Below are positions 35,625 to 60,905 of a stretch of 64,000 nt of DNA, one piece after another. The DNA lies in assembly GCA_014193315.1 (NCBI GenBank), contig BJHS01000002.1, positions 1 to 64,000 on the forward strand, read 5' to 3'. The position numbers and the translations under genes are program-made. The first letter of the stretch is position 1. Every line of letters begins with the position of its first letter. The notes beneath the pieces are model-generated. The model was not told where the DNA came from. It saw only the letters and a program-made list of their open reading frames with translations, and searched no databases. Source of the DNA: Verrucomicrobiota bacterium. GTDB taxonomy: Bacteria; Verrucomicrobiota; Verrucomicrobiia; Opitutales; UBA953.

Positions 35625-35654
35625 TTGCCAGCCCGCGGGGGGCCGCCTTGTTAT
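35625..35654 (+). promoter_or_regulatory. Putative promoter of the DUF1080 gene
   Basis: TTGCCA (35625-35630) and TGTTAT (35649-35654) are separated by 18 nt, immediately after the regulator's stop codon and before the ATG at 35664. The predicted leader is very short. The -35 has the TTGCC core common in this window. Confidence 0.35.
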
Positions 35655-35663
35655 ATCGTCACT

Positions 35664-36314
35664 ATGAGTACCCCCTCGTCCCTCCGCGCCTCCCTGCGCG
35701 TCGTCATCGCCCTCGGCTTCGGCGCCGTGGCCGCCCTCGCCGGCGAAGCCGTCTCGCTGTTCGACGGCAAGTCCCTCGCGGGCTGGAAGCCCTCGAAGAA
35801 CTCGCCCGAAGGCACCTACAAGGTCGCCGACGGCGTCCTCCAGGTCCGCGGCGGCCAAGGCCACCTCTACTTCGTCGGCGCCGACGGCAAGGCGGAGTTC
35901 AAGAACTTCGACTTCAAGGCCAAGGTAAAGACCTACAAGGGCGCCAACTCCGGCCTCTACTTCCACACCGCCTACCAGGACGCCGGCTGGCCGGCGGCTG
36001 GCTACGAGTGCCAGGTCAACGCCACCCATGGCGACAAAAAGAAGACCGGCGGCCTCTACGCCGTGAAGGACGTCATGGACGTCGCCCCCGCCCCCGATGA
36101 CGTCTGGTTCGACTACCACATCCGAGTCGAAGGCAAGCGCATCCAGATTTGGATCAATGACAAGCAGACCGTCGACTTCACCCAACCGGAAGACTGGACC
36201 CCGCCGAAGGGCATGGCTGGCCGCAAACTCGGCACGGGCACCTTCGCGATCCAAGCCCACGACCCCGGCTGCAAGGTCGACTACAAGGACCTCGTCGTCG
36301 AGAAACTGCCCTGA
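35664..36314 (+). CDS. Exported DUF1080 (3-keto-disaccharide hydrolase-like) protein
   Basis: The 216-residue product has a signal peptide ending near ALAGEAV and a single DUF1080 domain. This is a concanavalin-like beta-sandwich abundant in Verrucomicrobiota and Planctomycetota and linked to cleavage of 3-keto-glycosides. Family marks are SLFDGKSLAGWKPS near the start, NFDFKAKVKTYKGANSGLYF, AGYECQVNA (the E/Q-rich active-site strand), GGLYAV, and WFDYHIRVEGKRIQIWINDK. It is a one-gene unit with its own promoter and a strong terminator. The actual substrate is unknown. Confidence 0.88.
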   Translation: MSTPSSLRASLRVVIALGFGAVAALAGEAVSLFDGKSLAGWKPSKNSPEGTYKVADGVLQVRGGQGHLYFVGADGKAEFKNFDFKAKVKTYKGANSGLYFHTAYQDAGWPAAGYECQVNATHGDKKKTGGLYAVKDVMDVAPAPDDVWFDYHIRVEGKRIQIWINDKQTVDFTQPEDWTPPKGMAGRKLGTGTFAIQAHDPGCKVDYKDLVVEKLP

Positions 36315-38621: not shown

Positions 38622-38649
38622 AAAAGCCGACCGTAAGGTCGGTTTTTTT
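38622..38649. terminator. Bidirectional rho-independent terminator after rpmA
   Basis: The stem CCGACC (38627-38632) and GGTCGG (38637-38642) has a GTAA loop. It is flanked by AAAA on the left and seven T residues on the right. It serves rplU-rpmA and the convergent minus-strand operon that ends with the MATE gene. Confidence 0.85.
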
Positions 38650-38670
38650 GTGCCCAGAAAACCCGCCCCT

Positions 38671-40038
38671 TCAGGCGTCGTCAACGCCGGTCTGGGCGGC
38701 CTGCCGGAACTTCCACGCCATGGCTAGGGACACGAGGACAAGCCCGGTCGCCAGCGAGATCCAGATACCCACCGCCCCTAGCCCGAAATAACCAACCGGC
38801 AGCCCGAAGACCCGGAAGCCCACCGGGAACGCCAAAGCGAGCGCCAAGGGCAGACAGAACAGCCAGTAGACGATGAAGACACTCCAAGAGGCCCAGGCGG
38901 CCCGATTGACCGACCGGAGGAGGTAGGCCGCCACGACCTGCACGCCATCGAAGGGCGCCCACACCGCGGCGAAGATCAGCAAGGTCGAGGCGAGCGCCGC
39001 GGTCTCGGTGCCGGCGACGCCGTACGTCGCCATGAGTACCGGCCTTAAGAGAATCATGCCTAGCCCGTAGATGGCCATGATGAACCCGCCCATGACCAAG
39101 GCGCCGAGACCGATGGCCTGCACCTTGCGCGGGTCTTTGGCGCCATACGCCTCGCCGACGCGGATGCCGGCGGCGATGCCGAGCCCCAGCGGCAACATGA
39201 ACGCGGCCGACGCCGTGCTGATGGCGACTTGGTGCGCGGCCTGCGCGGTGGCGTTGATCCAGCCGGCCATGACGGGAACGATCGCGAAGATGCCGACTTC
39301 GCTGAGGCTGTGCAACCCCGCCGGCCAGCCCGTCTTCAGGAGGCGCTGGAAGACGGCCAGCTGCAGCCCGTCCGCCCAGCGCACCTCGCCGCGGCCGGGC
39401 GTGAACCAAAGACCGATGAGCATGACCAAGCGGGCGACGAGCGTGGCCCAACCAGCGCCCGCGAGACCCAGCGCGGGAAAGCCCCAGTGGCCGAACATCC
39501 AGAGCCAGTTAAAGAAGATATTGGCGAGGATGCCGGCGCTCAGCCAGGCCAGCGAGACCCACGGCTGGTGCTGGGAATCGCGGTGCCCGCGGAGCGCGTG
39601 AAACGCCAGGCCGGGCACCATCGCCCAGGACATGAGGATGAAGAACTCCCGGGCCTCGGCGCTGACCGCGGCGGAGGAGCCGAGCAAGGGGATGAAGTCC
39701 GCGGCCGCGTGCGAGCCGATCGCGGCGACGGCGCTGATGGCGACCGCCAGGACCATGCCATGCCGCAGGATCGCCGGCGCCGACTCCCCGACCCCGGCCC
39801 CGTTGTCCTGCGACTGGTAGACCGCGATCGCGCCGACGACCCCGATGCCGAAGACATACGGGATGTAGTTGAGGTTCGAGGCCAGCGCCGAGGCCGCCAA
39901 GGCCGTCTCGCCGAGGTGACCGGCCATCGCCACGTCGACGACGAACATCAGGCCGTAACCGAGCATACCCAGCATGATCGGCACCGCCAGTTTGAGCGTC
40001 GGGCCGAGTTCGGAGCGGATGGTCGGGGCGGCGGTCAA
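38671..40038 (-). CDS. MATE family efflux transporter
   Basis: The 455-residue product has about twelve hydrophobic segments in two similar halves, typical of the NorM/DinF (MatE) cation/drug antiporters. Characteristic stretches are LAVPIMLGMLGYGLMFVVDV at the start of the first half, AGWATLVARLVMLIGLWF, and KTGWPAGLHSLSEVGIFAIV at the start of the second half. The start codon appears to be TTG at 40038; no nearby ATG gives a complete first helix. It lies 36 nt after the beta-propeller gene on the same strand and is probably the last gene of that operon. A substrate cannot be deduced. Confidence 0.9.
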   Translation of the reverse strand: MTAAPTIRSELGPTLKLAVPIMLGMLGYGLMFVVDVAMAGHLGETALAASALASNLNYIPYVFGIGVVGAIAVYQSQDNGAGVGESAPAILRHGMVLAVAISAVAAIGSHAAADFIPLLGSSAAVSAEAREFFILMSWAMVPGLAFHALRGHRDSQHQPWVSLAWLSAGILANIFFNWLWMFGHWGFPALGLAGAGWATLVARLVMLIGLWFTPGRGEVRWADGLQLAVFQRLLKTGWPAGLHSLSEVGIFAIVPVMAGWINATAQAAHQVAISTASAAFMLPLGLGIAAGIRVGEAYGAKDPRKVQAIGLGALVMGGFIMAIYGLGMILLRPVLMATYGVAGTETAALASTLLIFAAVWAPFDGVQVVAAYLLRSVNRAAWASWSVFIVYWLFCLPLALALAFPVGFRVFGLPVGYFGLGAVGIWISLATGLVLVSLAMAWKFRQAAQTGVDDA

Positions 40039-40074
40039 GCCCCCAAGAGGAAAGGATTACCTTCCCGTGGCGAG

Positions 40075-41559
40075 TCAGTTCTTCGGCAAGCGGTTCAAGG
40101 TGTAATAGGCGTCCGCATGGTCCAGCGCCTCACCACCGGCCGAACGGAGACCGTCGGCATGCAACTCATGGACATGATGCTCGCGGAGGCCGTCCACCTT
40201 GAGGCGGACGCCGAGGCCGTCCGCGGCGACCTGGGCGGAGACGATGGCGTTCGGCGCGACCTGGATTTCCTCGCTGCCATAGGCGCCCGAATAGAGATAG
40301 GTGTGGCTGGTCATGCGGTAAGAGGCGACGTCCGCCGCCCGGACCTTATCGACAGGCTTGGTAAAGGTGAGCTCGAACCCGTCGGGTCGGGCTTTCATCT
40401 CCTTGATGGCGAACGGCACGACACCGGTGTAACGCAGGCGCTGCAGGCCGTAGGCCTTGGTGCCGAGCGAGGACCATCCTCGGCTGGTCATCCCGACCAT
40501 CAGCGAGCCATCCGGGGCAAAACTGAGGCGCACGATGCCGGCGGCGAAACCGCCGACGAACGGGAAGCAGGCTCCCTGATACTCGCCCTCGACCTTCTCA
40601 AGGAAGACCCGGCTGACCTTGGCGTCCGTGAACTCGGCCACGAACATCTGCCCGTCGAACGGACCGAACCGACCGCCGGCGGCGCAGACGGCGAGGTCGG
40701 TGCCGCTGCGACCCATCTTGTTGTAGGGCATCCAGACGGCGGGGGCGCGCATCTCGGGCAAGGCCTTCAAGGCCTCCGGGTAGGGCCGCTTCTCCGGGAG
40801 CTTGGCGGACAGCCTGACGGGCGACGCGGGCAGCTTCTCGGAGGCGATGCCTTCCGGATTCAGGAAGAACGCACCCGCACGGAGGTGGTAGATGGGCGTG
40901 GTCGGGATCCAGGTGCCTTGCTGATCGACGCAGAACATGTCGCCGGCGAGATTCGCCCCGAGCCCGCACGGCGAACGCAGGCCGGCCACCATGGGAATGA
41001 ACCGGCCACCCTCGCCCAGGACGCCACCCCACCCGCGCCACGGCGCCCGGTTGTCCGAGTGGTCGCCCATGTCGACATTAAGCGTGACCCAGAGCTGCCC
41101 GAGCCCGTCGCGCTTCGGACCGTAGGCATAGCCGTGGTAGGAGCCGGAAACGTTCCAGCCCGCGCCGGCGGTAAGATACTCGTCGGCGACACCGTCGCCG
41201 TTCGTGTCGCGCAGGCGGGTCGTCTCGGTCCGCTGGGTGACGAGGAGATCCTTGCCGTCCCGTAACAGGCCGAGCGGTTCGTGCAGTCCCGAGGCGAAGA
41301 GCTGGTACGTCACCCGGTCGGGCTTGGGCGCGAGGACGCCATCGAGGAGCCAGACCTCGCCCTTACGGATCGAGAGCGCGAGTTTGCCGTCGGCGGTCCA
41401 GTCCATGCCGCTGACCTCGAGCGCGAGGCCGTCGCCCGGCTTCCAATCCTTGGCGCGCGTATCCGCCACGGTGCTCGCGGTCAGGATATCGACGATTTCG
41501 TAGGACGGCGCGCCGGCGAGGGCGGCCGCGGACAGGAACGTGGCGGCGACGGCTTTCAT
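40075..41559 (-). CDS. Exported beta-propeller protein (sorbosone/glucose dehydrogenase-like), copy 1
   Basis: The 494-residue product has a short signal peptide (MKAVAATFLSAAALAG). Its propeller-type repeats resemble the membrane-bound glucose/sorbosone dehydrogenase-like domains common in PVC bacteria. Features are FASGLHEPLGLLRDG, the calcium-type loop DTNGDGVADEY, APWRGWGGVLGEGGRFIPM, AGLRSPCGLG and FVAEFTDAKVSRV. Such proteins are presumed to oxidise sugars or alcohols and to pass electrons to cytochrome c. No cofactor site can be proven here. The ATG overlaps the stop of the five-heme cytochrome gene (ATGA), indicating coupled translation. A paralogue lies at 59377-60882. Confidence 0.82.
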   Translation of the reverse strand: MKAVAATFLSAAALAGAPSYEIVDILTASTVADTRAKDWKPGDGLALEVSGMDWTADGKLALSIRKGEVWLLDGVLAPKPDRVTYQLFASGLHEPLGLLRDGKDLLVTQRTETTRLRDTNGDGVADEYLTAGAGWNVSGSYHGYAYGPKRDGLGQLWVTLNVDMGDHSDNRAPWRGWGGVLGEGGRFIPMVAGLRSPCGLGANLAGDMFCVDQQGTWIPTTPIYHLRAGAFFLNPEGIASEKLPASPVRLSAKLPEKRPYPEALKALPEMRAPAVWMPYNKMGRSGTDLAVCAAGGRFGPFDGQMFVAEFTDAKVSRVFLEKVEGEYQGACFPFVGGFAAGIVRLSFAPDGSLMVGMTSRGWSSLGTKAYGLQRLRYTGVVPFAIKEMKARPDGFELTFTKPVDKVRAADVASYRMTSHTYLYSGAYGSEEIQVAPNAIVSAQVAADGLGVRLKVDGLREHHVHELHADGLRSAGGEALDHADAYYTLNRLPKN

Positions 41560-43613
41560 TTCCAAAGGTAGGTGAAGACGCGCCGACCGGCGGCGGCGGG
41601 GCCTTCCGTCGGCGCGAGCTCCGGAGGATGGTGGATGGCCGGGGTGAAGCCGGGCACGGGGGTCCAGGTGACGATGCGCCGCAGACCGCCGGCGACGCCT
41701 TCGAAGGTCTCCTCGACCTTCACGCCGCCCTGTTCGTTGAGGAACGTGGGGTTGCCATCGGCGTCGAGGCGGTAGCCGAGGAAACGGCCAACGGGCTTAG
41801 GCCAGGCGACGACCCGTTCGCCGAGGGGCTTCTCGAAGGTGGGGAAGCGCGAGAACCACGTCAGGTAGGCGTCGAAAAACCGTCCTTTCCAGGCGAGGCC
41901 GGGCCCGCCCTGATCGCCATCATAGGCGAGATGCACGCCGGTCGGGAAACCGACCAGGATGGCGCGGACGCCCACGCCGTCCAGAAAAGCGCGCTGCACG
42001 ACCGGACGATCCTTGGGGACGATCTCAAACTCTCCGTGGCGGTTCCGCGGGAAGCCTTCGGGTTCGCCGTTGGCGCTTTCGGCGAACTTGTAGATGGCCG
42101 CGATCTGCTTGTCGGTGTCGCCCCCCAGGATCGACGGATTGAAGGATTTGCCACCGGGCCAGAACGAGGGCATCAACGTGCCTGGACGATAGCCAGCCGG
42201 GTTGATGAGGTATTCCTTGAGCCAGCCTTCCTGCAGGCGCGAGGCGATGTTGCTGATGTCGGGCCCTTGGATGCCCAGGGACGGACGGTCTCCCCAACGG
42301 TGGCAGGTGATGCAGCCCGCCCCACCCTGCGTACCCAGGAGCTTGCGGCCGGCGGTGTCGTCGCCGCCTGCGAACTTCAGGACGGCACGCGCATCGGCGA
42401 CACCTAGGAGCTTGGCGAGCTCCGCGGTGGACGCGCCATACTGCGGCATCCTGGTCTTCAGGTACGGACGCACGCGGTTCCCGCCGGCCATCACCTTAGC
42501 CAGCCATTCGGGGCGGAGCTTGCCACCGACACCGGTCAGGGGCGGCGGATACCGGCCGGTGTCGCCGAGGTTGTGGTCGCCTTGGAAGTAGGGCTTGCGG
42601 GCGGCGTCGGGGCCGCCCTGGCCGTCGCGCTCATGACAAGCGACGCAGTTGAGCGCATGCAAGGTCAGCTCGGCGGCGAGTTTCGGCGCGGCGGCCTCGC
42701 CCTTCCTCGCGAGGAATAGTTTCAGCGCGGCGCGCTGGGGCTCCGCAAGCGCGTAGCGCGGACCCCTGACGTGATCGGCGTCCAGACAGCCGCCATCGAT
42801 CCTACCCAACGCCACCGGCTTCGCGGCGACATCCTCGGGCAGGTCGTGACAGGCGGCGCACCGGGCCGCGAGGACGGCCTGGCGCCCGGCGAGGGCGAGC
42901 GTCTTATCCGCGACGACGGGGACGACCGGTTCGTCCAGACGTCCGTCGCTGCCGCGGAACGCGAGCAGATAGCCGGCGATGTCGATGGCGTCCTGGCGCT
43001 CCATCGCGACCTTCGGCATGCGTCCGTCGGTCCGCACCTTGAGCGGGTCGAGGATGAAGGCGCCAAGGCTATCGAGGCTGTGCTTGGCCTTGAGGTCGCC
43101 TAAGCCGACGCTGCGATGCGTGAACTCGGCGGCCTTGGGCGCGCCTTCGGGCGGGACGAAGTCCTGGCCGGGAGCATGACAGGCGACGCAGCCCATGGTA
43201 TTGAACAACTCGCCGCCCCGGCCGCCGTTGACGTGCATGATCTTCGCCGGGCCTTTCGGCTCGGCCTTGGGCCCCAAGGAAGCGAGATAGTGCTCGACCG
43301 CGTCGAGCGTCCGGGCGTCCGACCTGGCGAGGACCTGCGGCATGACCGCGCCAGGATGGACGGCCGCAGGGTCGGCGACGAACCGACGAAGCCATTCGGA
43401 GCGGACGCGCTGGGTGACCGTCGCGAGCGCCGGACCGCGCGGCGCGGGCAGACCGGTCACGCCGCCGTGACAGTTCACGCAACCGAGTTCGTTATAAAGG
43501 AGACGACCGCCTTCGGCCGTCGGCGTCGCGGCGTGGAAACGCTCGAAGCCCGTGACGAGCGGTTCGGCGACCAGCGCGGCGCCGGCGAGCAGGATGGCGG
43601 CCCGGAGGATCAT
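41556..43613 (-). CDS. Exported five-heme cytochrome c
   Basis: The 685-residue product starts at 43613, overlapping the stop of the upstream gene, and has an N-terminal signal sequence (MILRAAILLAGAALVAE). Five CxxCH heme-binding motifs are present, at residues 45-49 (CVNCH), 142-146 (CVACH), 252-256 (CAACH), 323-327 (CVACH) and 434-438 (CITCH). Each lies in a cytochrome c-like module with downstream Met contexts such as MPKVAMER and RMPQYGAS. The last 200 residues carry no heme and resemble the C-terminal domain of the cytochrome at 60906-62474 (HLAYDGDQGG, GYRLDADGNPTF). It is likely the electron acceptor for the following propeller protein. Confidence 0.9.
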   Translation of the reverse strand: MILRAAILLAGAALVAEPLVTGFERFHAATPTAEGGRLLYNELGCVNCHGGVTGLPAPRGPALATVTQRVRSEWLRRFVADPAAVHPGAVMPQVLARSDARTLDAVEHYLASLGPKAEPKGPAKIMHVNGGRGGELFNTMGCVACHAPGQDFVPPEGAPKAAEFTHRSVGLGDLKAKHSLDSLGAFILDPLKVRTDGRMPKVAMERQDAIDIAGYLLAFRGSDGRLDEPVVPVVADKTLALAGRQAVLAARCAACHDLPEDVAAKPVALGRIDGGCLDADHVRGPRYALAEPQRAALKLFLARKGEAAAPKLAAELTLHALNCVACHERDGQGGPDAARKPYFQGDHNLGDTGRYPPPLTGVGGKLRPEWLAKVMAGGNRVRPYLKTRMPQYGASTAELAKLLGVADARAVLKFAGGDDTAGRKLLGTQGGAGCITCHRWGDRPSLGIQGPDISNIASRLQEGWLKEYLINPAGYRPGTLMPSFWPGGKSFNPSILGGDTDKQIAAIYKFAESANGEPEGFPRNRHGEFEIVPKDRPVVQRAFLDGVGVRAILVGFPTGVHLAYDGDQGGPGLAWKGRFFDAYLTWFSRFPTFEKPLGERVVAWPKPVGRFLGYRLDADGNPTFLNEQGGVKVEETFEGVAGGLRRIVTWTPVPGFTPAIHHPPELAPTEGPAAAGRRVFTYLWK

Positions 43614-44536
43614 GCCGTCTCGCGGACGCACTTCTCGACGTAGGCGCGCGACTCGTTGATGAGCGCGGTGACCTCGGCGGTGGTCGGCATCACGGGGATG
43701 CCACGGGGCGTGGGGTGCATGAAGAGTTCGACCTGGCCGTCGAAACGGATGTCCCGCAAAGTCCTCATGATCGGGCGGTAGTCCAGCTTGCCGCGACCGG
43801 CCATCTGGCGGAGCTCCTCTTCCTTCGAGGCCTTCTTGAAGATACCCTCGGAGTGCTCCTGGAAATACATGAAGGGGAGGTTCTGGGCGCCGAGGTCGCG
43901 CAGGAGCGCCGGGATCTGGTCGGACCACTCATGCAGGTGGTGCGGCGCGAAGGCCACGCCGAGCGCGGGGGACTTGTTCAGCTCGGCGAAGGCGCGGAGG
44001 GAGTCCGGATGGTGCAGCGCCTGGTTGGAGTGGTTCTCGATCGCGATGCGTACGCCGAGCTCCCCGGCCCTGGCGGCGTGGGGCTTCATCTCCTCGAGGA
44101 ACTTCGCGATGGCCGCCTTGGCGGCCGCGCCGGAGGGATTCTTCGGGCCGGTGCTGCCGCAGACGACCGTCGTGCCACCGTGCTGCTTCACCCAGGCCAT
44201 CTCGTCCTGAAGCTTGAACGGTCCGAGCGGATAACGCGTGCTCACGCCGACCTTGACGCCGTGCTTCTTCAGCAGCGCCGCGAAGGCCTCGTCGCCCAGC
44301 GCGGCCGCCTGCTCGCGCTGGTCGCCGTGCACCTTGCACCAGAGGTCGATCGACTCGCTGCCGGTCTTGGCGACCTCGGGCAGGACCTCGGCGAGCGGGG
44401 CGTAGCCGTACATAGCGGACGACAGCACGTAGCGGAGGCGGAAGGGATCCGCGGCCTGGGCCCGCAGGGCGGGCGCGGCGACGGCCGCGGCGGCGGCGAG
44501 GCCGGCGGAACGCAGGAATTCGCGACGGGAGAGCAT
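43610..44536 (-). CDS. Tat-exported TIM-barrel protein of the sugar phosphate isomerase/epimerase superfamily
   Basis: The 308-residue product opens with a twin-arginine signal (LSRREFLRSAGLAAAAAV) and continues as an AP endonuclease 2-like TIM barrel. Likely metal-site residues occur in RIAIENHSNQA (Glu), FAPHHLHEW (His) and GQVELFMHPTPRG (Glu). Family members in PVC bacteria are often found in sugar pathways with 3-keto or inosose-type substrates, but this one cannot be assigned. The Tat signal suggests it folds with its metal before export. It lies 4 nt after the DJ-1-like gene and overlaps the cytochrome gene by 4 nt. Confidence 0.87.
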   Translation of the reverse strand: MLSRREFLRSAGLAAAAAVAAPALRAQAADPFRLRYVLSSAMYGYAPLAEVLPEVAKTGSESIDLWCKVHGDQREQAAALGDEAFAALLKKHGVKVGVSTRYPLGPFKLQDEMAWVKQHGGTTVVCGSTGPKNPSGAAAKAAIAKFLEEMKPHAARAGELGVRIAIENHSNQALHHPDSLRAFAELNKSPALGVAFAPHHLHEWSDQIPALLRDLGAQNLPFMYFQEHSEGIFKKASKEEELRQMAGRGKLDYRPIMRTLRDIRFDGQVELFMHPTPRGIPVMPTTAEVTALINESRAYVEKCVRETA

Positions 44537-44540
44537 GGCC

Positions 44541-45227
44541 TTACTTCTTGGCGACTTCGGCCTCGAGCATCTTGATCCACGGGCCGACGAAGGCGCCGTT
44601 GTCGTGGAAGGTGCGGCCGCTGACCATGTTCCGGTCGATGACGACGGGGGCGTTGACGAAGACGCCGCCGCAGACCTCGAGGTCGAACCTGCACTTCGGC
44701 ACGGTGGCCATGCGCAGGCCCTTCACGATACCGGCGCGGGCGGGGATCTCGACGCCGTGGCAGACGCTCATCATCGGCTTCTTGTTCTCCCAGAACCAGC
44801 GCGTCGCGGCCAGCAGGGTCTCGTCCTCGCGGAGATACTCCGGGGCGCGGCCGCCGCTGAAGAAGATGCCGACGTATTCCTCGGGTCTGATATCCTTGAA
44901 GGCCAGGTCGACGTTGATCGTGTAGCCCTCCCACTCCTTGGTGATCGTCCAGCCCGGCTTCACCTCGTGGAGCACCGTCTGGTGGGGCCGCTTCTCCGGG
45001 GCCGCGAAGACCGGCTGGAAGCCGGCTTCCTGCAGGCGGTAGACCGGGTACATCGTGTCGAGCAGTTCGGTGGCGTCGCCGATGATGATGAGCACCTTCG
45101 GCTTCCGGGCGTTCTCGGGCCGGTCCGCCCCCGAGGAGATCGCGGACTGGTTGCGGTTGTCGACGAGGGCGGCGGAGGCGACGGCGCCGAAGGCGAGGAG
45201 GCCGGCGAGCAGGAGACGGGGTTTCAT
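44541..45227 (-). CDS. Exported DJ-1/PfpI family protein
   Basis: The 228-residue product has a signal peptide (MKPRLLLAGLLAFGAVASA) and a DJ-1/PfpI flavodoxin-like domain. Hallmarks are KVLIIIGDATELLDTMYPV, FFSGGRAPEYLRED (glycine-rich loop) and the nucleophile elbow MMSVCHGVEIPARAG with the reactive cysteine. The domain occurs in glyoxalases, amidases and proteases; export from the cytoplasm is unusual for the family. The function here is unknown. It is the first gene of the minus-strand operon and lies opposite the XylR-type regulator. The frame remains open far upstream but overlaps that regulator, so I reject the longer form. Confidence 0.87.
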   Translation of the reverse strand: MKPRLLLAGLLAFGAVASAALVDNRNQSAISSGADRPENARKPKVLIIIGDATELLDTMYPVYRLQEAGFQPVFAAPEKRPHQTVLHEVKPGWTITKEWEGYTINVDLAFKDIRPEEYVGIFFSGGRAPEYLREDETLLAATRWFWENKKPMMSVCHGVEIPARAGIVKGLRMATVPKCRFDLEVCGGVFVNAPVVIDRNMVSGRTFHDNGAFVGPWIKMLEAEVAKK

Positions 45228-45237
45228 GGGGTCGCCC

Positions 45238-45266
45238 AGTATATCCTTTCTTGCCCGGGATGTCAT
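45238..45266 (-). promoter_or_regulatory. Promoter of the DJ-1/isomerase/cytochrome/propeller operon
   Basis: On the minus strand, ATGACA (45266-45261) and TATACT (45243-45238) are separated by 17 nt, a good sigma-70-type match. It overlaps the divergent promoter of the regulator gene almost completely. Confidence 0.5.
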
Positions 45267-45278
45267 TACGGCTATGAT
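45251..45278 (+). promoter_or_regulatory. Promoter of the XylR-type regulator gene
   Basis: TTGCCC (45251-45256) and TATGAT (45273-45278) are separated by 16 nt, about 30 nt before the ATG at 45309. It is the best example of the TTGC-N16-TATG pattern in this window. It interleaves with the divergent operon promoter, so polymerases on the two promoters should exclude each other. Confidence 0.5.
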
Positions 45279-45308
45279 GCACCAAAAGTAAGGTTTTTGG
45301 TCAAAGCC

Positions 45309-46472
45309 ATGCCCGCCCTCCCCCTTCGCCGCGCCCCGCGGGTCGCCCTGCTCATCGAGACCACGCGGACCTACACCCGCGAGCTGCTCGCGGGCGTCCG
45401 CCGTTATGTGGCGGCCCACGGCCCCTGGTCGACCTACCTGGAGCTGCGCGCGCTGGATTCCTCCCCGCCCACCTGGCTCAAGGATTGGGACGGCGACGGC
45501 ATCCTGACGCGGACCTTCGGCGCGGAGACCTCCCGGCTGATCGCGGCCACGGGGTTGCCGGCCGTCGAGCTGCGCTCCACCCACTTCACCGGCGGGCGGC
45601 CGTTCGTCGGCTGCGACAACGCGGACATCGGCCGCATGGTGGCCGAACATTTCCATGAGCGGGGTTTCCGGCACTTCGCGGCCTACAGCCAGCGCAATGA
45701 GCGCTTTTTCGTCGAACGCGTCGCCAACTTCCGGAAGGTGGTCCGCGCCTACGGACATCGTTGCCATGAGCTCCCCGAGGATCACCCGGAGCGCGTGCCG
45801 GACTGGGAGCAGAGCCAGCGCCGCCTGATCCGCTGGATCGCCCGGTTACCCAAACCGGTCGGCATCTTCGCCGCGACCGACCAGCTCGGGGTGCGCTTGC
45901 TCGAGGCCTGCCAGACGGCGGGCGTGCCGGTCCCGGAGGAAGTGGCGGTCGTGGGCGCCGAGAACGAGGAGACGCTGTGCAGCTTCACGACGCCGCCCCT
46001 GTCCTCGGTCCGCTTCGACGGACACGGGGTCGGCTACGCCGCCGCCGAGTTGCTCGACCGCCTGATGCGCGGCAAGGCCGCCCGCGCCAAGCCCGTGCTG
46101 CTCGCGCCGAAGGGCATCGTCGTGCGGGGCTCCTCCGGCGAGGTGGTGATCCGCGACCGGCTCGTCGCCCGGGCCGTCGCGCTCATCCGCGCGGAGGCGG
46201 TCCGCGGACTCGACGTCAACGCGCTGACCACCCGGCTGGGCGCGTCCCGCAGCACCCTCGACCGACGCATGAAGTCCGCGCTCAAGCGCTCGCCCAAGGA
46301 CGAGATTCGGCGCGTCCGCTTCCGCGAGGTGGAGCGCCTGCTGCGCGAGACCAACCTCACCATCGACTTGATCGCGGAGCAGACGGGCTTCACCCACAGC
46401 CACTACCTCCAGACCGCGTTCAAGGCGCGCTATCGCCAGACCCCTGGCAGGTTCCGACGTTCGCCGACCTGA
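45309..46472 (+). CDS. XylR-type AraC-family transcriptional regulator
   Basis: The 387-residue protein joins a periplasmic-binding-protein-like sensor domain (about 10-275) to a C-terminal AraC helix-turn-helix pair (about 285-385). The sensor domain has RVALLIETTRTYTRELLAGV, FVGCDNADIGRMVAEHF, GIFAATDQLGVRLLEAC and VAVVGAENEETLCSF. The DNA-binding part has LTTRLGASRSTLDRRMKSAL and DLIAEQTGFTHSHYLQTAFK. The architecture equals that of Escherichia coli XylR, so a sugar or sugar-like ligand is likely. It is divergent from the DJ-1/isomerase/cytochrome operon, which is its obvious target. The true start is 45309; the open frame before it runs through the neighbouring gene. Confidence 0.93.
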   Translation: MPALPLRRAPRVALLIETTRTYTRELLAGVRRYVAAHGPWSTYLELRALDSSPPTWLKDWDGDGILTRTFGAETSRLIAATGLPAVELRSTHFTGGRPFVGCDNADIGRMVAEHFHERGFRHFAAYSQRNERFFVERVANFRKVVRAYGHRCHELPEDHPERVPDWEQSQRRLIRWIARLPKPVGIFAATDQLGVRLLEACQTAGVPVPEEVAVVGAENEETLCSFTTPPLSSVRFDGHGVGYAAAELLDRLMRGKAARAKPVLLAPKGIVVRGSSGEVVIRDRLVARAVALIRAEAVRGLDVNALTTRLGASRSTLDRRMKSALKRSPKDEIRRVRFREVERLLRETNLTIDLIAEQTGFTHSHYLQTAFKARYRQTPGRFRRSPT

Positions 46473-46537: not shown

Positions 46538-49500
46538 TTACAACTCGTCGGGGCGCAACCAACGGAACGACACCAGCTTCATCCGGCGGCCGAACACGGC
46601 ATTCGCCATGTAGGGGTTGGAGTTGACCGCAAGGAAGTCGCCCTGCGGGGGCTTCCACGCGTCGATGCGCGGGTCGACGTATTCGGGTACGCGCTGGAAG
46701 ATGGCCTCGCACCAGGCCCGGGAAGTGCCTTCGGGCGTGGCCACTTCGCCGAGGGAGCGGACCAGGAAGGTCTCGTCGCGCACCGACATGATCGGGGCGA
46801 GGCGGCGGAGCAGGTCCGCTTGGCGGGGCCAGCCCGGCAGGCCTTCGGAGGAATTACCGACGGCGGCCTGAGGGTTGATGTAGTCGGCGGAGAAGCCCGC
46901 CGGGTTTAGTTTCAAGTCGGTCACCGGGGTGGTCGGCTTACCATGGAACGCCGCGTTCAAGCAGAAGGCCTTCTTCGTGGAGTCCGTCGTCGTCAGGCTC
47001 GCGGTGGTCTGCTGCAGGACCTCGAGCGCCGACTGGAGGGCGCCACGCAAGCAGGGATCGATGGCGGTGCCGTCGAAAGACGTCAGCTGACGGTTCACGA
47101 ACTCGGAGAGCGAAAGGAACGGACCGCGGATTTTCACCTGTTTCACGATCTCGATGGCGAGGGTATCGAGTTGGAAGTCGGTCAAGGCGGCGTAGCCGGT
47201 GAGCGCGGCCATGCGCGAGGTACCGGAGGTCTCGGGCGAGGGCAGCATGCGGACCAAGGCCGTCTTGCCGGTGCCAATGGTATCCATGCTCATGGCCGTG
47301 GCAGTCTTCAGCACGGGGATCCGCTGGTCGCGCAGGCTACCGAGGACGGCGCGCCAAGCGGGGACGGAAGTGCTGTTGACGTTGAACTGGCCATTGACCG
47401 TGAGGAAGGCCCCGAGTTTCAGCCAAGCGTCCGGCACCGACGTGCCGCCGGTGGTCGCACTCGTCCACGAAACCGGCCCCGTGCTGTCGATGGCGAGGCT
47501 CGCGGCCTTCACCGAGGGCTTGTAGGCGCGGTTGGCCAGCGGGGCGGTGCCATCGATGACCTTGGACCAGGCGGTCTTCAGTTCCGTCATCACTTCGGCT
47601 CCCTTGCTGTCGTCGTTCAGCCCGGACCACTTGGCGTAGTCGGGGGTCAGCGAGGAGACGAACCAATCGTCGAATAAGACGTGGTTGAGGCAATAGCGGT
47701 CGTCGTGCTGTAGGAACGAGGCCGGGACCTGGTCGCGCGTCTTGTAAACGCCCTTGTTGTCGAACCAGCGACCCACCACGTCGTTGGACGGGAGGACGGG
47801 GCTGGCGTCGGAATTACCGATCAAGCCATAGATGAACGGGGGCGCCGGGTTGAAGCCGCGGGCATCCCAGTTCTGAAGGTCGGCCAGGGACTGCAGGGGA
47901 GTGACGGGCTGCTCGGCCACGACCGCGGTGTTCAGGCCGGTGGCGGCGTCGAGGCCCGAGACGACGTAGCCCTGGGCGCTCGTGTTGGCCTGCGGGGCGT
48001 AGCTATCGCTCCAGCCGGACAGCGGGCGCCACCAGAGGTCGAAGGGCGCGTTGATCGGGTGCATGCAACCGTAGTAGCGGATGCCATTCTGTTTTTGGGG
48101 TTCGAAATACCCCCCCGGAATGGTGCCAACCTGGTCGGCGTTATTAAACACCAGAACCTCGGCGGACTTGTCGCCGAGTTCAGTGTAACCGGTGAACGGG
48201 CTGGACTGCAGCGTGCCGCGGGAGACGATGCCCGGGTCGGTCTTGAGGAAGCCAAGCGAATTAGCGACCGAGTTATTAAGCGTGTAGGAGTTGAGCGTCG
48301 AGCCATCATTGGCCAGACGCATGCCAAAGGCGAAAGTGCCGAACGGGCGCGAGGTGCCAATGACGCTGTCGTAGGTATAACCCAGCGGCACATTAGGGTC
48401 ATCGGGACCGTAGAGGTGGCTGAAGAGCCACATCGCCGAATCGGTCCAGATGTCGTTGCCGAAACTGAAACGCACCGGGGTGGACCGCGCCCAGTTGAGG
48501 GCGGCGCCCAGATTGATATCGATCCCGATGGCGTCACGACCGGTGTTCAGTTTGCGCATGGCGAAACCCATGCTGCCACGGGCCGGCTGCGCGACGGTGT
48601 CATCGCGCCAGGTCAGCCAGAGGCCCGAGCCACCATTGTAGCCGGCGATGTAACCTGGGCGAAGGTTGAACGTTGCCGTCTGCCCCGTGGTGTTGGGGTA
48701 GGACCAAGGATAACCACCCGAGGACGGCACGCGCTGACCCGCGTCGGTGATGGAATAGACCCGGGTCTCACCGGGGCCGAGGTCCATGGTGCCGCTCGGG
48801 GAGTTCATGACGAGCTGCAGGGAGTTCCAGCTACCCCGCTGGAACCAATAACCAATCGGCACGATGATCGGGTCGATCGACGTGCTCGTGAGGCCGAGGC
48901 TGAAACCGACAGGCAGCTGGTCGGCCTTGATGCTCAAGGTCACGTCGGGCACCTTGATCCGGACGTTGTAAGGGTTCCAGAAGGTGATCACCGGCTGCAG
49001 GATGATGTGGCGCTGGTAGAGGCCGGCGCCATTGGAGGTGGCCGTCGCCGAGAAGACGAACTGCATGCGGGCCACGACCGGGTGGCGGTAGATCGTCTCG
49101 TGGTAGTTATACATCGGGTTGCTCCCACTGGTGCTGCCCGTCGCCGAAGGCGGGCGCATCTCCACGACCTGCGCGGGCGTACCCGCGACCACCGCTTTGC
49201 GGTACTGCAGCATGTAGTCGACCATCGTGTTCCAGCTCCGGATCGGCGGGATGAAGCTCAACCCGCGGTAGGTGCCGGGGTCCGTGTAGGAGATATTGCT
49301 GCCACCGATACTGCTGTAGTCGGACCAGTAGTACATCAGGGTCTTGCGGCCCTTGTTGCCGTTGGCCTGGGCTTGGCTGTCAAGGTACGGACGCCCGAAC
49401 ATCAGGTCGGCGGTGTTGGCCGCGGCGTTGACCTTCGGTTTGAAACGGAAGAAAGGCAACGTCACCGACCGTCCGGGATCGAGGGTGTTGATGTAGTCCC

Positions 49501-50719
49501 AGGACTCCGAGAGCAGGGAGAGGTCGCGCCGGAAGCCGCCGGTGGCCACATTGATCAAGAGCCCCGGCGAGTAAACGGTGTAGTCATGGAAGCCTGCTTT
49601 ATTGACGACGCTGACCGACGTCGGCGGCGTGGCCTGGGCCATGGCTCCAGCCAGAGAACTGCGCGAAGGCAGAATCATCTCCACCGTCGGCTGGGTCAGG
49701 CCCAACGCGGCAAAATCGACGCGTCCGAAAGTGCGCGAGCGGCGCGACGCCTCAACCACGTCGGGGGCGGTGCTCCCGCCGATGGCCGGCAGCGGTGCCT
49801 CCACACTCACCAAGGCCTTCTGATTCTCACCCGAAACCCACCACGCGAAGGTGCTGTCGTTGGCCTGGTTGGTAACGGTGTCCGGGAAGGCCTGCGGGGT
49901 GAGCGTCACGCGGTCCGTCACGTTCACCGGCGCGGTGGTGATCCCGACCATGGGCGAGGAGTAGGCCAAGGCAGGCGAAAGGAAGGCCGCAAGGTGGCCT
50001 GCGTTGGTCCACAAGGGAAGCGAGGCGGGGGCGGCGCCGACCACGGGCGGCTTGCCGGGCGACGGCTTGGGTGGGCGCGGCCTCACCTCTGTGATCGGCG
50101 GCATGGGGGGGGGCTTTGCGATGCTCGGGGTAGCGTTGAAGGTACCGTTGAAGATACCACCTAAGGGCTTGGCTGGCTGGAAGCGGACGGCGGGCGGCGC
50201 CGGCGGGGGCGGCGGCGTCGGGGGGACCAAGGGGTCCAACGGAATGTAGGCGTTGGAGGTCAACCAACCCAAAAAGCGACCTTTGGTGTTGATCGCCCCG
50301 GTCGTCGAGTTAAAGTTGTCGGTCGCCTTGAGGTTGTAATCAGGGTACGGCAACGGACGGCCGAGGAAGTTGGTGTTGCTCCGCTCGTGGTCGAGCCCTT
50401 CCCAGCTGCGCCAGACCCCGAGCACCGGGAAGTCGAAGGTGTCCAAGGCCGAACCGTCGTCGAAAATGTTGGACGGCGCGGTGATGCGGGTATCGGGCCC
50501 GAGCAGCTGCTGCATGTTGCCCTGGGCAAGCCGCAGGGAGGCGATGGTGTTGAGGCGGGCGCGGGTCAGCAGGACGCTGTTCATCGCGAGGCGCGATTCG
50601 ACCTTCAGGAAGGCGGCCAGGACGATGATGACGATCACCAAGGCGGCGGCCATGACGAGGGAGAGCACTAGGGAAAACCCCGAGCGCTTCGACTTAAGGG
50701 TAGATGGCTTCTTAACCAT
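46538..50719 (-). CDS. Verru_Chthon cassette protein A-like giant pseudopilin-related protein
   Basis: The 1393-residue product starts with a prepilin-like segment. A basic leader is followed by RSGFSLVLSLVMAAALVIVI, a type IV pilin N-terminus whose Glu at +5 is missing, as in GspK-type minor pseudopilins. Residues about 160-230 are very Pro-rich. The long remainder is a Trp/Tyr/Asn/Ser-rich extracellular-looking sequence, with a segment PFLSLSEFVNRQLTS near residue 1190 that recalls GspK/PilX hairpins. The layout fits the Verru_Chthon cassette A family of Verrucomicrobiota (function unknown). The companion proteins B, C and D normally encoded next to A are not found on either side. Base composition is a little less GC-rich than its neighbours. 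Confidence 0.8.
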   Translation of the reverse strand: MVKKPSTLKSKRSGFSLVLSLVMAAALVIVIIVLAAFLKVESRLAMNSVLLTRARLNTIASLRLAQGNMQQLLGPDTRITAPSNIFDDGSALDTFDFPVLGVWRSWEGLDHERSNTNFLGRPLPYPDYNLKATDNFNSTTGAINTKGRFLGWLTSNAYIPLDPLVPPTPPPPPAPPAVRFQPAKPLGGIFNGTFNATPSIAKPPPMPPITEVRPRPPKPSPGKPPVVGAAPASLPLWTNAGHLAAFLSPALAYSSPMVGITTAPVNVTDRVTLTPQAFPDTVTNQANDSTFAWWVSGENQKALVSVEAPLPAIGGSTAPDVVEASRRSRTFGRVDFAALGLTQPTVEMILPSRSSLAGAMAQATPPTSVSVVNKAGFHDYTVYSPGLLINVATGGFRRDLSLLSESWDYINTLDPGRSVTLPFFRFKPKVNAAANTADLMFGRPYLDSQAQANGNKGRKTLMYYWSDYSSIGGSNISYTDPGTYRGLSFIPPIRSWNTMVDYMLQYRKAVVAGTPAQVVEMRPPSATGSTSGSNPMYNYHETIYRHPVVARMQFVFSATATSNGAGLYQRHIILQPVITFWNPYNVRIKVPDVTLSIKADQLPVGFSLGLTSTSIDPIIVPIGYWFQRGSWNSLQLVMNSPSGTMDLGPGETRVYSITDAGQRVPSSGGYPWSYPNTTGQTATFNLRPGYIAGYNGGSGLWLTWRDDTVAQPARGSMGFAMRKLNTGRDAIGIDINLGAALNWARSTPVRFSFGNDIWTDSAMWLFSHLYGPDDPNVPLGYTYDSVIGTSRPFGTFAFGMRLANDGSTLNSYTLNNSVANSLGFLKTDPGIVSRGTLQSSPFTGYTELGDKSAEVLVFNNADQVGTIPGGYFEPQKQNGIRYYGCMHPINAPFDLWWRPLSGWSDSYAPQANTSAQGYVVSGLDAATGLNTAVVAEQPVTPLQSLADLQNWDARGFNPAPPFIYGLIGNSDASPVLPSNDVVGRWFDNKGVYKTRDQVPASFLQHDDRYCLNHVLFDDWFVSSLTPDYAKWSGLNDDSKGAEVMTELKTAWSKVIDGTAPLANRAYKPSVKAASLAIDSTGPVSWTSATTGGTSVPDAWLKLGAFLTVNGQFNVNSTSVPAWRAVLGSLRDQRIPVLKTATAMSMDTIGTGKTALVRMLPSPETSGTSRMAALTGYAALTDFQLDTLAIEIVKQVKIRGPFLSLSEFVNRQLTSFDGTAIDPCLRGALQSALEVLQQTTASLTTTDSTKKAFCLNAAFHGKPTTPVTDLKLNPAGFSADYINPQAAVGNSSEGLPGWPRQADLLRRLAPIMSVRDETFLVRSLGEVATPEGTSRAWCEAIFQRVPEYVDPRIDAWKPPQGDFLAVNSNPYMANAVFGRRMKLVSFRWLRPDEL

Positions 50720-57140: not shown

Positions 57141-59051
57141 TCAGCCGCCCGCGGGGCGGGCTTCCTCGCGGGCCTGGGAGGCCGTACTGTCCGCCCAGAG
57201 CTGCTGGGTGACCTTGAGGAGGACGTAGCCGCTCACGAGCGTGACGGCGGTGAGAATCCACGCCATGGTCAGGCGCTTGGGGTCGCCGGCGGCATAGAGG
57301 AAGTTGCCGATCGCGAAGAGCGAACCCCAGATGAGCGCGCAGCCAGCGATCCAGCCGACAAAGGCCGAGCCAATCCGGTTTTCCGAGGCGATTTCGGCGT
57401 CGGTGATACCGGCTTCGGCACGGATGTCCGTCCAGCCCGGGCCAGCCGGCTTCACCTTCTGGCAGAAGGCGATGAGCGTCGCGCGGTCCGTCTGCGGGCC
57501 GACATAGGCGGTGATGAGCCACGACAGAGTCGTCAGCCCGACCTGGATGATGGTCGTGGTCGCGAAGTCCGCCGTGGGCATGAAGTGAGGCACGGCCACC
57601 GAGGTCACGAGCGACATGACCATGGCGACGACTTCGCACCAGGCGGAGACGCGCCACCAGAACCAGCGGGCGATGTAGAGCAGGCCGGTGCCGGCCCCGA
57701 TGGAGAGCAGCACTTGGAAGGCCTGCTGGGCCGAGGTCATGTAGAGGCTGAGGATCGCGGCGATGACGTAGAGGAAGACGGTCGAGAGGCGGCCGACGTT
57801 GACGTAGTGGGACTCGCTGCCGTTCTTCACCATGAAGCGACGGTAGAAGTCGTGGACGAGGTAGGAGGAGCCCCAGTTGAGGTGGGTCAAAATCGTCGAG
57901 GAATTGGCGGCGATGAGGCCACCGATCATCAGGCCGACGAACCCGACGGGCAGGAACATGAGCATGGCCGGGAAGGCGGAGTCATGGCCGATGAGCTTGG
58001 GGTCGGCATTGGGGAAGGCCTTGATGATGGCCGCGAGGTCCGGGTAGATGATGATCGAGCAGAGGGCGGTGATGATCCACGGCCAAGGACGCAGCACGTA
58101 GTGGGCGATGTTGAAGAAGAGCGTGCCGCCCAGGGAGTCCTTCTCGGACTTCGACGCCAGCATGCGCTGCGCGATGTAAGAGCCGCCACCGGGTTCGGCG
58201 CCCGGGTACCAGTTGGCCCACCAGCTGATGGCGATGGGGAGGATGAAGATCATGAGCGCGAGCTCGCTCATCGTGAAGTTCGGCAGCATGTCGAGGATCG
58301 GCTGACCTTTACCGTCCGACACCGACATCACCGGCACACCCTGGGTCGTCACGACCTGCTGGGTGGAGAGCTTGGCGATGAGGGCCTTGAGGCCGGCCCA
58401 ACCGCTGGCTTCGCCAGTCAGACGCCGACCCACCTCGACCAGCGAGAACCACGCGGCGGCGAAGACGGCGGTCATCTTGATGAAGAACTGCACCATATCG
58501 ATGACCAGCACGCCCCAGAGGCCGGAGTGCGCGGCGAAGACGACATTGAGGACGCCGCAGATGACGATGGTCTGCCAGGCGGGCATGCCGAAGAGGATGT
58601 TGGCGATCTTGCAGGCGGCCAAGGTCACCATGCCCATGATGAAGCAGTTGAAGAAGAGCCCGAGGTAGATGGCGCGGAAACCACGCACCACCGACGCGGC
58701 GGTACCGGAATAGCGATGCTCGTAGAACTCGAGGTCGGTCATGACGCCCGAGCGGCGCCACAGGCGGGCGAAGAAGAAGACGGTGGCGACGCCCGTGAGG
58801 ACGAAGGCCCACCACTGCCAGTTACCGGCGACGCCGTACTTGCGCACCTGCTCCGTCACCCAGTTGGGGGTGTCGGACGAGAACGTGGTCGCGACCATCG
58901 AGAGGCCGGCGAGCCACCAGGGCACCGAGCGACCGGAGGCGAAGAACTCGGCGGTGCTACCGCTGGAGCGCTTGGCGAGGAAGAGCGCGGGGACGAAGCA
59001 GACGAGAATTGAGGCTGCGACGATGACCCAATCAATCCAGGTGATGTTCAT
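57141..59051 (-). CDS. Sodium:solute symporter (SSS family)
   Basis: The 636-residue product has about 13-14 membrane segments with the SSS/LeuT-like pattern. It starts with MNITWIDWVIVAASILVC and then has SSGSTAEFFASGRSVPWWLAG, the classic SSS region, followed by STFSSD-like ATTFSSDTPNWVTEQV and EFYEHRYSG. Its size and the VGLMIGGLIAANSSTILTHLNWG helix (helix with Ser/Thr sodium ligands) fit sugar or organic-acid symporters of PVC bacteria. The substrate cannot be read from sequence. I start at 59051; the open frame upstream is not helix-like. A TTGCCAAG element lies about 40 nt upstream. Confidence 0.93.
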   Translation of the reverse strand: MNITWIDWVIVAASILVCFVPALFLAKRSSGSTAEFFASGRSVPWWLAGLSMVATTFSSDTPNWVTEQVRKYGVAGNWQWWAFVLTGVATVFFFARLWRRSGVMTDLEFYEHRYSGTAASVVRGFRAIYLGLFFNCFIMGMVTLAACKIANILFGMPAWQTIVICGVLNVVFAAHSGLWGVLVIDMVQFFIKMTAVFAAAWFSLVEVGRRLTGEASGWAGLKALIAKLSTQQVVTTQGVPVMSVSDGKGQPILDMLPNFTMSELALMIFILPIAISWWANWYPGAEPGGGSYIAQRMLASKSEKDSLGGTLFFNIAHYVLRPWPWIITALCSIIIYPDLAAIIKAFPNADPKLIGHDSAFPAMLMFLPVGFVGLMIGGLIAANSSTILTHLNWGSSYLVHDFYRRFMVKNGSESHYVNVGRLSTVFLYVIAAILSLYMTSAQQAFQVLLSIGAGTGLLYIARWFWWRVSAWCEVVAMVMSLVTSVAVPHFMPTADFATTTIIQVGLTTLSWLITAYVGPQTDRATLIAFCQKVKPAGPGWTDIRAEAGITDAEIASENRIGSAFVGWIAGCALIWGSLFAIGNFLYAAGDPKRLTMAWILTAVTLVSGYVLLKVTQQLWADSTASQAREEARPAGG

Positions 59052-59160
59052 AAGCGGGAGGGGTGACCTTGGTCTCCCAAAATCGCCCACCCTTGGCAAC
59101 CGTGTTCACCTAGGGCGAAAGGCCGTTATTTGCTCGGTTGGGTGCATGAGGGAGTTTCGG

Positions 59161-59188
59161 GGTTAGCGGTTGGCGGTTAGCGGTTGGC
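59161..59188 (+). repeat. Two perfect 14-nt tandem repeats with a distal inverted partial copy
   Basis: GGTTAGCGGTTGGC occurs twice in a row (59161-59174 and 59175-59188). The core TTAGCGGTT recurs in inverted orientation as AACCGCTAA at 59294-59302, about 105 nt away. A long imperfect hairpin could form. It may be part of a dispersed REP-like family, which one window cannot show. Confidence 0.6.
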
Positions 59189-59304
59189 GGACAGAGAGCG
59201 TCCGCTTCTCCCTTCTCGGAAATGGGTCCGACAGGCGGAGCCGTCACCTCACCCCACATAACGGAGAATTCGCCATCCCCTCTCCCCTTCCCTAACCGCT
59301 AAAC

Positions 59305-59326
59305 AAAAAAGGCGCTTTGCGGCGCC
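59305..59326 (-). terminator. Rho-independent terminator of the second cytochrome/propeller operon
   Basis: On the minus strand, a GGCGC/GCGCC hairpin (59311-59326) is followed by TTTTTT (59310-59305). It lies about 50 nt beyond the stop of the propeller gene. Confidence 0.7.
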
Positions 59327-59376
59327 CCTCTCACTGACCTCCGTCCCTCAGGCCCTCGTGTCCTCGCGTCCTCGCG

Positions 59377-60882: not shown

Positions 60883-60905
60883 GGTAAGGTGGGAGGTGAG
60901 GGGTT

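Follow-up and report, generated by a model that had tools for sequence, protein, structure and literature searches.

The stretch of DNA analyzed here, referred to as the window, comprises positions 1 to 64,000 of the forward strand of contig BJHS01000002.1 (assembly GCA_014193315.1) from a Verrucomicrobiota bacterium (Opitutales; UBA953). The genome is 2.36 Mb in size and 97% complete, and its closest named relatives are Opitutae MAGs and isolates. Within the window, five genes on the minus strand (DJ1, TIM, CYT, PROP and MATE) extend from 45227 to 38671, and a divergent regulator gene, REG, faces away from them. The locus contains the following features:

45309..46472, plus strand: REG, divergent XylR-like regulator (periplasmic-binding-protein sensor and AraC-type HTH)
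45262..45303, minus strand: predicted REG operator, TGACCAAAAACCTTA-N22-ATGAC, its second half overlapping the -35 box
45238..45266, minus strand: sigma-70-like promoter of the operon, ATGACA-17 nt-TATACT, 10/12 consensus positions
44541..45227, minus strand: DJ1, DJ-1/PfpI protein with a predicted Sec signal peptide
43610..44536, minus strand: TIM, AP_endonuc_2 TIM barrel with a Tat signal
41556..43613, minus strand: CYT, exported cytochrome (five CXXCH motifs, C-terminal beta domain)
40075..41559, minus strand: PROP, exported six-bladed propeller
38671..40038, minus strand: MATE efflux transporter
38629..38651, plus strand: hairpin with a T-run that terminates convergent rpmA and is bidirectional in part at most

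All six genes lie where the original prediction had placed them, and Pfam and profile scores agree with the families it had named; an alternative TTG start is possible for REG at 45297. The tight packing described there was also found at the four junctions. TIM/CYT and CYT/PROP each share a 4-nt ATGA overlap, while gaps of 4 nt and 36 nt separate DJ1 from TIM and PROP from MATE. Scanning for promoters returned 2 promoter-like sites versus 0.5 in shuffled sequences, one of them upstream of DJ1. The strong terminator that had been proposed for the end of the operon serves the other strand: the T-run of the hairpin at 38629-38651 is on the plus strand, which makes it the terminator of the convergent rpmA, and the hairpin on the minus strand (38677-38664) is weak. 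The terminator scan showed no excess over shuffled sequences (6 versus 4.0 ± 2.0).

Two neighbouring genes were noted in passing. Adjoining REG, 46538-50719 on the minus strand encodes a 1393-residue protein with a prepilin-like N-terminus and no Pfam or NCBIfam match. On the plus strand, 35625-36314 encodes an exported-looking 3-keto-disaccharide hydrolase (PF06439, 134 bits) that hints at keto-sugar handling in the cell. This DUF1080 gene was rejected as a member of the operon as it is on the opposite strand, is separated from the operon by other genes and shows no more than general synteny.

Conservation of the gene cluster

A scan with PROP as the query yielded 67 loci, numbered here with the prefix L; the closest PROP, that of L032, is 99% identical. 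The core consists of the regulator and, on the opposite strand, DJ1-TIM-CYT-PROP, and it occurs in three orders. Loci with this gene arrangement come from Opitutales, Chthoniobacterales (Chthoniobacter flavus, L082) and Akkermansiaceae (L088-L090) and have PROP identities of 53-77%. A divergent REG is usual beside it, and a REG orthologue adjoins the operon in all 7 genomes (of 286 sampled) whose PROP identity is at least 53%; REG was not seen at the Akkermansiaceae loci L088-L090. Further families of the class carry the genes as TIM-DJ1-CYT-PROP (L109, L111, L112) or have all four proteins together (L113, L114, L122), and CYT-PROP pairs of lower identity occur without TIM and DJ1 (L115-L121, L123-L126). 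The clustering is far beyond chance, and genes that are rearranged yet retained together are good evidence of joint function. Rather than being scattered in relatives, the genes keep their synteny across three orders, as expected from the original prediction. The set of five genes listed there needs to be narrowed, as DJ1-TIM-CYT-PROP is conserved while MATE (MatE, 124 bits), about 36-40 nt behind PROP, is an addition confined to the window's lineage, and we dropped it from the core. No account of this gene set turned up in the literature searches.

Within the window's family TIM occurs as two alleles (43610-44536; L034-L057) that are about 70% identical; the neighbouring genes are 76-89% identical. 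L057, although within the type A clade, has a type B TIM, probably through replacement of the gene at its original position.

The regulator and its predicted site

REG contains a Peripla_BP_3 sensor (126 bits) and an HTH_18 domain (62 bits), the domain make-up of XylR-type regulators, supporting the sugar-type regulator proposed originally; its score against the PBP1_XylR profile is below the cut-off of that profile. Between REG and DJ1 there is a 15-bp element, TGACSAAAAACCTKA, that in its bipartite form, TGACSAAAAACCTKA-N22-RTGAC, covers the -35 box with its second half. The exact element has a single copy in the genome. With up to 2 mismatches it is present in 25/25 DJ1 upstream regions with REG versus 1/16 without (Fisher p 2.5e-10, a value that ignores the relatedness of the loci and comes from the same loci in which the site was first noticed).

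A more independent test is provided by the set obtained with REG instead of PROP as the query, in which some genomes overlap in species. Of the 13 orthologues in this set (57-89% identity), 12 are opposite a DJ1 gene. The bipartite site, allowing up to 4 mismatches, accompanies 11 of the 13, compared with one match in 323 kb of shuffled DNA. Among six REG paralogues (46-49% identity), a single 3-mismatch match and no DJ1 neighbour were found. A class-wide pattern search located the site in 6 of 384 genomes, at REG in four. The same site, with the same spacing, is also positioned upstream of a neighbouring TonB-receptor gene in L065, L069 and L071 (family checked for L069). We conclude that REG very probably regulates the operon via the predicted site. 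Architecture, conservation and the co-occurrence of site and regulator agree with the single regulated unit that had been postulated.

Promoter alleles with and without REG are interspersed in the window's family. The form with regulator and site alternates with the regulator-less form among close relatives (45227-45309; L037, L038, L041, L042, L052-L055, L083) and the structural genes stay in place, a pattern that suggests repeated switching, possibly by recombination.

The encoded proteins and the exchange of the oxidising module

Our assignments are confined to the DJ-1/PfpI, AP_endonuc_2, cytochrome c and MATE families. DJ1 matches the DJ-1/PfpI profile with 101.7 bits, and E54, C156 and H157, corresponding to the Glu/Cys-His nucleophile site, are invariant in relatives. 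The closest solved structures are those of plant DJ-1 homologue D, a glyoxalase III. As DJ1 is the sole PF01965 match in the window's genome, the cell seems to be without a cytoplasmic DJ-1. Signal peptides were judged by eye; that of DJ1 was seen only in the window's close lineage. In L048, L055 and all other families there is none, and the protein begins close to the domain. The exported form is thus derived from an ancestral DJ1 without a signal peptide, and in most relatives the substrate of DJ1 may be met in the cytoplasm. The original description of an exported DJ-1 protein therefore fits the predicted Sec signal in the window's lineage, although export is not a defining feature of the protein, and the statement that four of the five products are exported holds locally but not generally.

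The twin-arginine start of TIM (AP_endonuc_2, 64 bits) is kept in all aligned relatives, and E167-x-H169, H200, H274 and R278 are invariant in the alignment. TIM aligns weakly with IolI, TM0416 and tagatose epimerase. Sequence and profile alignments did not recover the Glu-Asp-His-Glu metal site of the superfamily in TIM: Glu167 is kept, Ala197 and Phe225 replace the Asp and the His, and diverged members do not retain the last Glu. An alternative, c64-type TIM keeps the metal Asp, His and Glu. Isomerization of the product, the role first suggested for TIM, is weakened by the missing canonical ligands, although the E-x-H motif is kept.

In 27 relatives, CYT retains all five CXXCH motifs without exception. 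Its Pfam matches are to Cytochrom_C, CBB3 and other general cytochrome families, with no PSCyt/PSD domain among them. The predicted model contains cytochrome domains, SoxX-like at residues 409-514, and a C-terminal beta domain (residues 531-685) with a weak resemblance (Z 7-9) to supersandwich domains of YidC and carbohydrate enzymes. The fold search gave no strong match for CYT.

PROP is a DUF7133/TIGR02604-like propeller that scores below the curated cut-offs, with 26.7 bits against the 122.2 required for TIGR02604 (PVC-type heme-binding CxxCH). Its predicted model (pLDDT 80, pTM 0.85) has the six-bladed fold of PQQ aldose sugar dehydrogenases, with Z-scores of 26-28 to these enzymes versus about 23 to other propellers. 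H142, R195, K281 and R317 are invariant in relatives, and the aldose dehydrogenase motif RNPQG reads RSPCG. At the sequence level there was no PF07995-type Pfam match, a profile search of PDB sequences found nothing, and hhalign returned a probability of 0.5% for PROP against E. coli YliI. The window's genome has no PqqE match. Of the 286 genomes sampled, 17 have PqqE above the cut-off and 73 carry PROP, and the two groups do not overlap; a PqqC search recognized none of the control genomes and is therefore uninformative. Carriers lacking PqqE would need to scavenge PQQ or use another cofactor, and PROP might serve in binding and not in catalysis. E. coli has YliI without making PQQ, which makes scavenging possible.

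Other cytochrome-propeller pairs are present in the same genome. A second pair in the window (57141-62474, minus strand) comprises a PA14-domain cytochrome (60906-62474) and a propeller (59377-60882), followed by a sodium:solute symporter, and has the same gene order in L124 and L125. A further pair, L123 (G000:C11:41500-55500), is situated between two sulfatase genes.

The CYT-PROP pair is exchanged for a different module at two loci. In L134 and L138, REG, the site and DJ1 are followed by a c64-type AP_endonuc_2 TIM, a GMC oxidoreductase and a Gluconate_2-dh3 protein; the best solved relatives of the GMC protein are fructose and glucose dehydrogenases. The c64-type TIM (51-68% identical) also accompanies CYT-PROP in L077 and L079, so the CYT-PROP and GMC modules look interchangeable. 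Since the type of TIM and the oxidising module vary independently under one regulator, this exchange, the strongest functional evidence of the analysis and drawn from two loci, suggests that CYT-PROP holds the place of a sugar dehydrogenase. Together with the fold of the PROP model it supports the earlier proposal that the cytochrome and the propeller form an oxidising pair.

Proposed function and comparison with known systems

We favor an inducible catabolic operon for the extracytoplasmic oxidation of a sugar-like or glycoside-like compound, an interpretation to which we give roughly even odds. REG would respond to a small sugar-like ligand. The position and co-occurrence of the bipartite site suggest that REG binds there, just upstream of and overlapping the -35 box of DJ1, probably to activate transcription. 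PROP and the five-heme CYT would form a periplasmic dehydrogenase in which the substrate is oxidised by PROP and the electrons travel through CYT to the respiratory chain; the C-terminal domain of CYT may also bind carbohydrate. The keto product would be the substrate of the Tat-exported TIM, most likely in a lyase or eliminase reaction. Reactive dicarbonyl by-products would be removed by DJ1, whose predicted location is cytoplasmic in most relatives but periplasmic in the window's lineage. Without a signal peptide in most relatives, DJ1 may not act beside the exported enzymes. The window's lineage would have added MATE as an efflux pump.

The genes around the operon in relatives bear on this interpretation. 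No glycoside hydrolase was recognized inside the operon. A TonB-Xanth-Caul receptor gene is located between DJ1 and TIM in L092, and in L059, L064 and L079 the genes behind PROP are of esterase, deacetylase and FAD-oxidase type. In one Opitutaceae group, genes for a family III CoA-transferase and an enoyl-CoA hydratase are directly behind PROP (L066, L067, L069, L070, L092); a CoA-transferase alone was called there in L065, and CoA-transferase genes recur nearby in L073 and L075. Acyltransferase genes were also observed behind PROP, with the CoA-transferase and the hydratase, in this group (L065-L070, L092). The two CoA enzymes suit a carboxylic acid rather than a sugar and keep an acid-forming pathway under consideration, in which CYT-PROP, serving carboxylic-acid or aromatic/terpenoid catabolism, would oxidise an alcohol or aldehyde to an acid that would then become a CoA ester. 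We regard such a pathway as unlikely, as neither the window's lineage nor the loci of Chthoniobacter and Akkermansiaceae have the CoA genes, and the sulfatases, esterases, TonB-Xanth-Caul receptor and exchange for a GMC sugar dehydrogenase point to carbohydrates.

Another candidate role is the use of sulfated sugars, with the exported enzymes acting downstream of sulfatases. A sulfatase gene is inserted between TIM and CYT in L040, genes of sulfatase clusters flank the locus in L060, L076, L079 and L085, and sulfatases flank other CYT-PROP pairs, including L123. Sulfatases near PSCyt (cytochrome) genes have likewise been described in freshwater Verrucomicrobia (He et al. 2017, PMC5615132). Most orthologous operons, however, have no sulfatase within about 9 kb, and the abundance of sulfatases in the phylum means that some adjacency is expected by chance; we consider a role in sulfated-sugar use improbable. 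We consider a stress or detoxification locus equally improbable. Here DJ-1 and MATE would protect against reactive carbonyls or a toxicant, and the cytochrome and propeller would be a periplasmic sensor or detoxifying oxidase. The presence of both a DJ-1 protein and a MATE exporter in the window is consistent with this idea, as is DJ1 being the gene most constantly linked to REG (12/13 orthologues), but MATE is lineage-specific, and the TonB receptors under the same site, like the exchange for a sugar dehydrogenase, speak for uptake and catabolism.

In the boldest reading, CYT-PROP could be a new class of periplasmic sugar dehydrogenase, pairing a PQQ-less propeller of the PQQ type (heme-only or with another cofactor) with a carbohydrate-binding five-heme cytochrome, within a new keto-sugar pathway of Verrucomicrobiota that uses an exported TIM with a metal-free or rearranged site. 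This extension is tentative, and we hold it to be possible at best. Verrucomicrobiota have many exported cytochrome/propeller pairs, and the locus offers a handle on their role: its regulator is dedicated and has a predicted site, the partners are few and fixed, and a recognizable sugar dehydrogenase naturally takes the place of the pair in two genomes. The role of such cytochromes becomes a testable question about extracytoplasmic carbohydrate oxidation.

The GMC and Gluconate_2-dh3 module of L134 and L138 resembles the LacABC type in its subunit make-up. In Caulobacter crescentus, a LacABC-type periplasmic lactose 3-dehydrogenase acts with a DUF1080 3-ketolactose hydrolase (PMC9007349). The operon as proposed would be analogous in having a membrane-bound, multi-component extracytoplasmic sugar dehydrogenase followed by an exported enzyme for the keto product. 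It differs in that the dehydrogenase would be a propeller with a five-heme cytochrome, TIM and DJ-1 stand in place of DUF1080, and a dedicated XylR-like regulator is present. The O- and C-glycoside beta-eliminases AtOGE and PuCGE, which act on 3-keto-glycosides, are TIM barrels whose E/H-x-H motif, in PuCGE a metal ligand and the catalytic His (PMC10628242), is matched by E167 and H169 of TIM. Their Mn2+ site includes an Asp and a His (PMC10628242), where TIM, as judged through superfamily relatives, has Ala and Phe; unlike these enzymes TIM is exported. PROP shares its modelled propeller fold (Z 22-28) with AA12 and the PQQ aldose sugar dehydrogenases (E. coli YliI/Asd, 2ism, 3a9g, 3das), and the positions of a His and of an RxPxG motif are comparable. 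It departs from them in lacking profile-level sequence homology, in having RSPCG for RNPQG, in occurring in sampled carriers without PqqE, and in its fixed five-heme cytochrome partner. The PSCyt/PSD and TIGR02604 proteins are likewise exported cytochrome/propeller proteins of PVC bacteria encoded near sulfatases (PMC5615132), and PROP has a weak TIGR02604 match; in the present locus, by contrast, heme and propeller are on separate proteins, encoded in an operon with DJ-1, TIM and a regulator.
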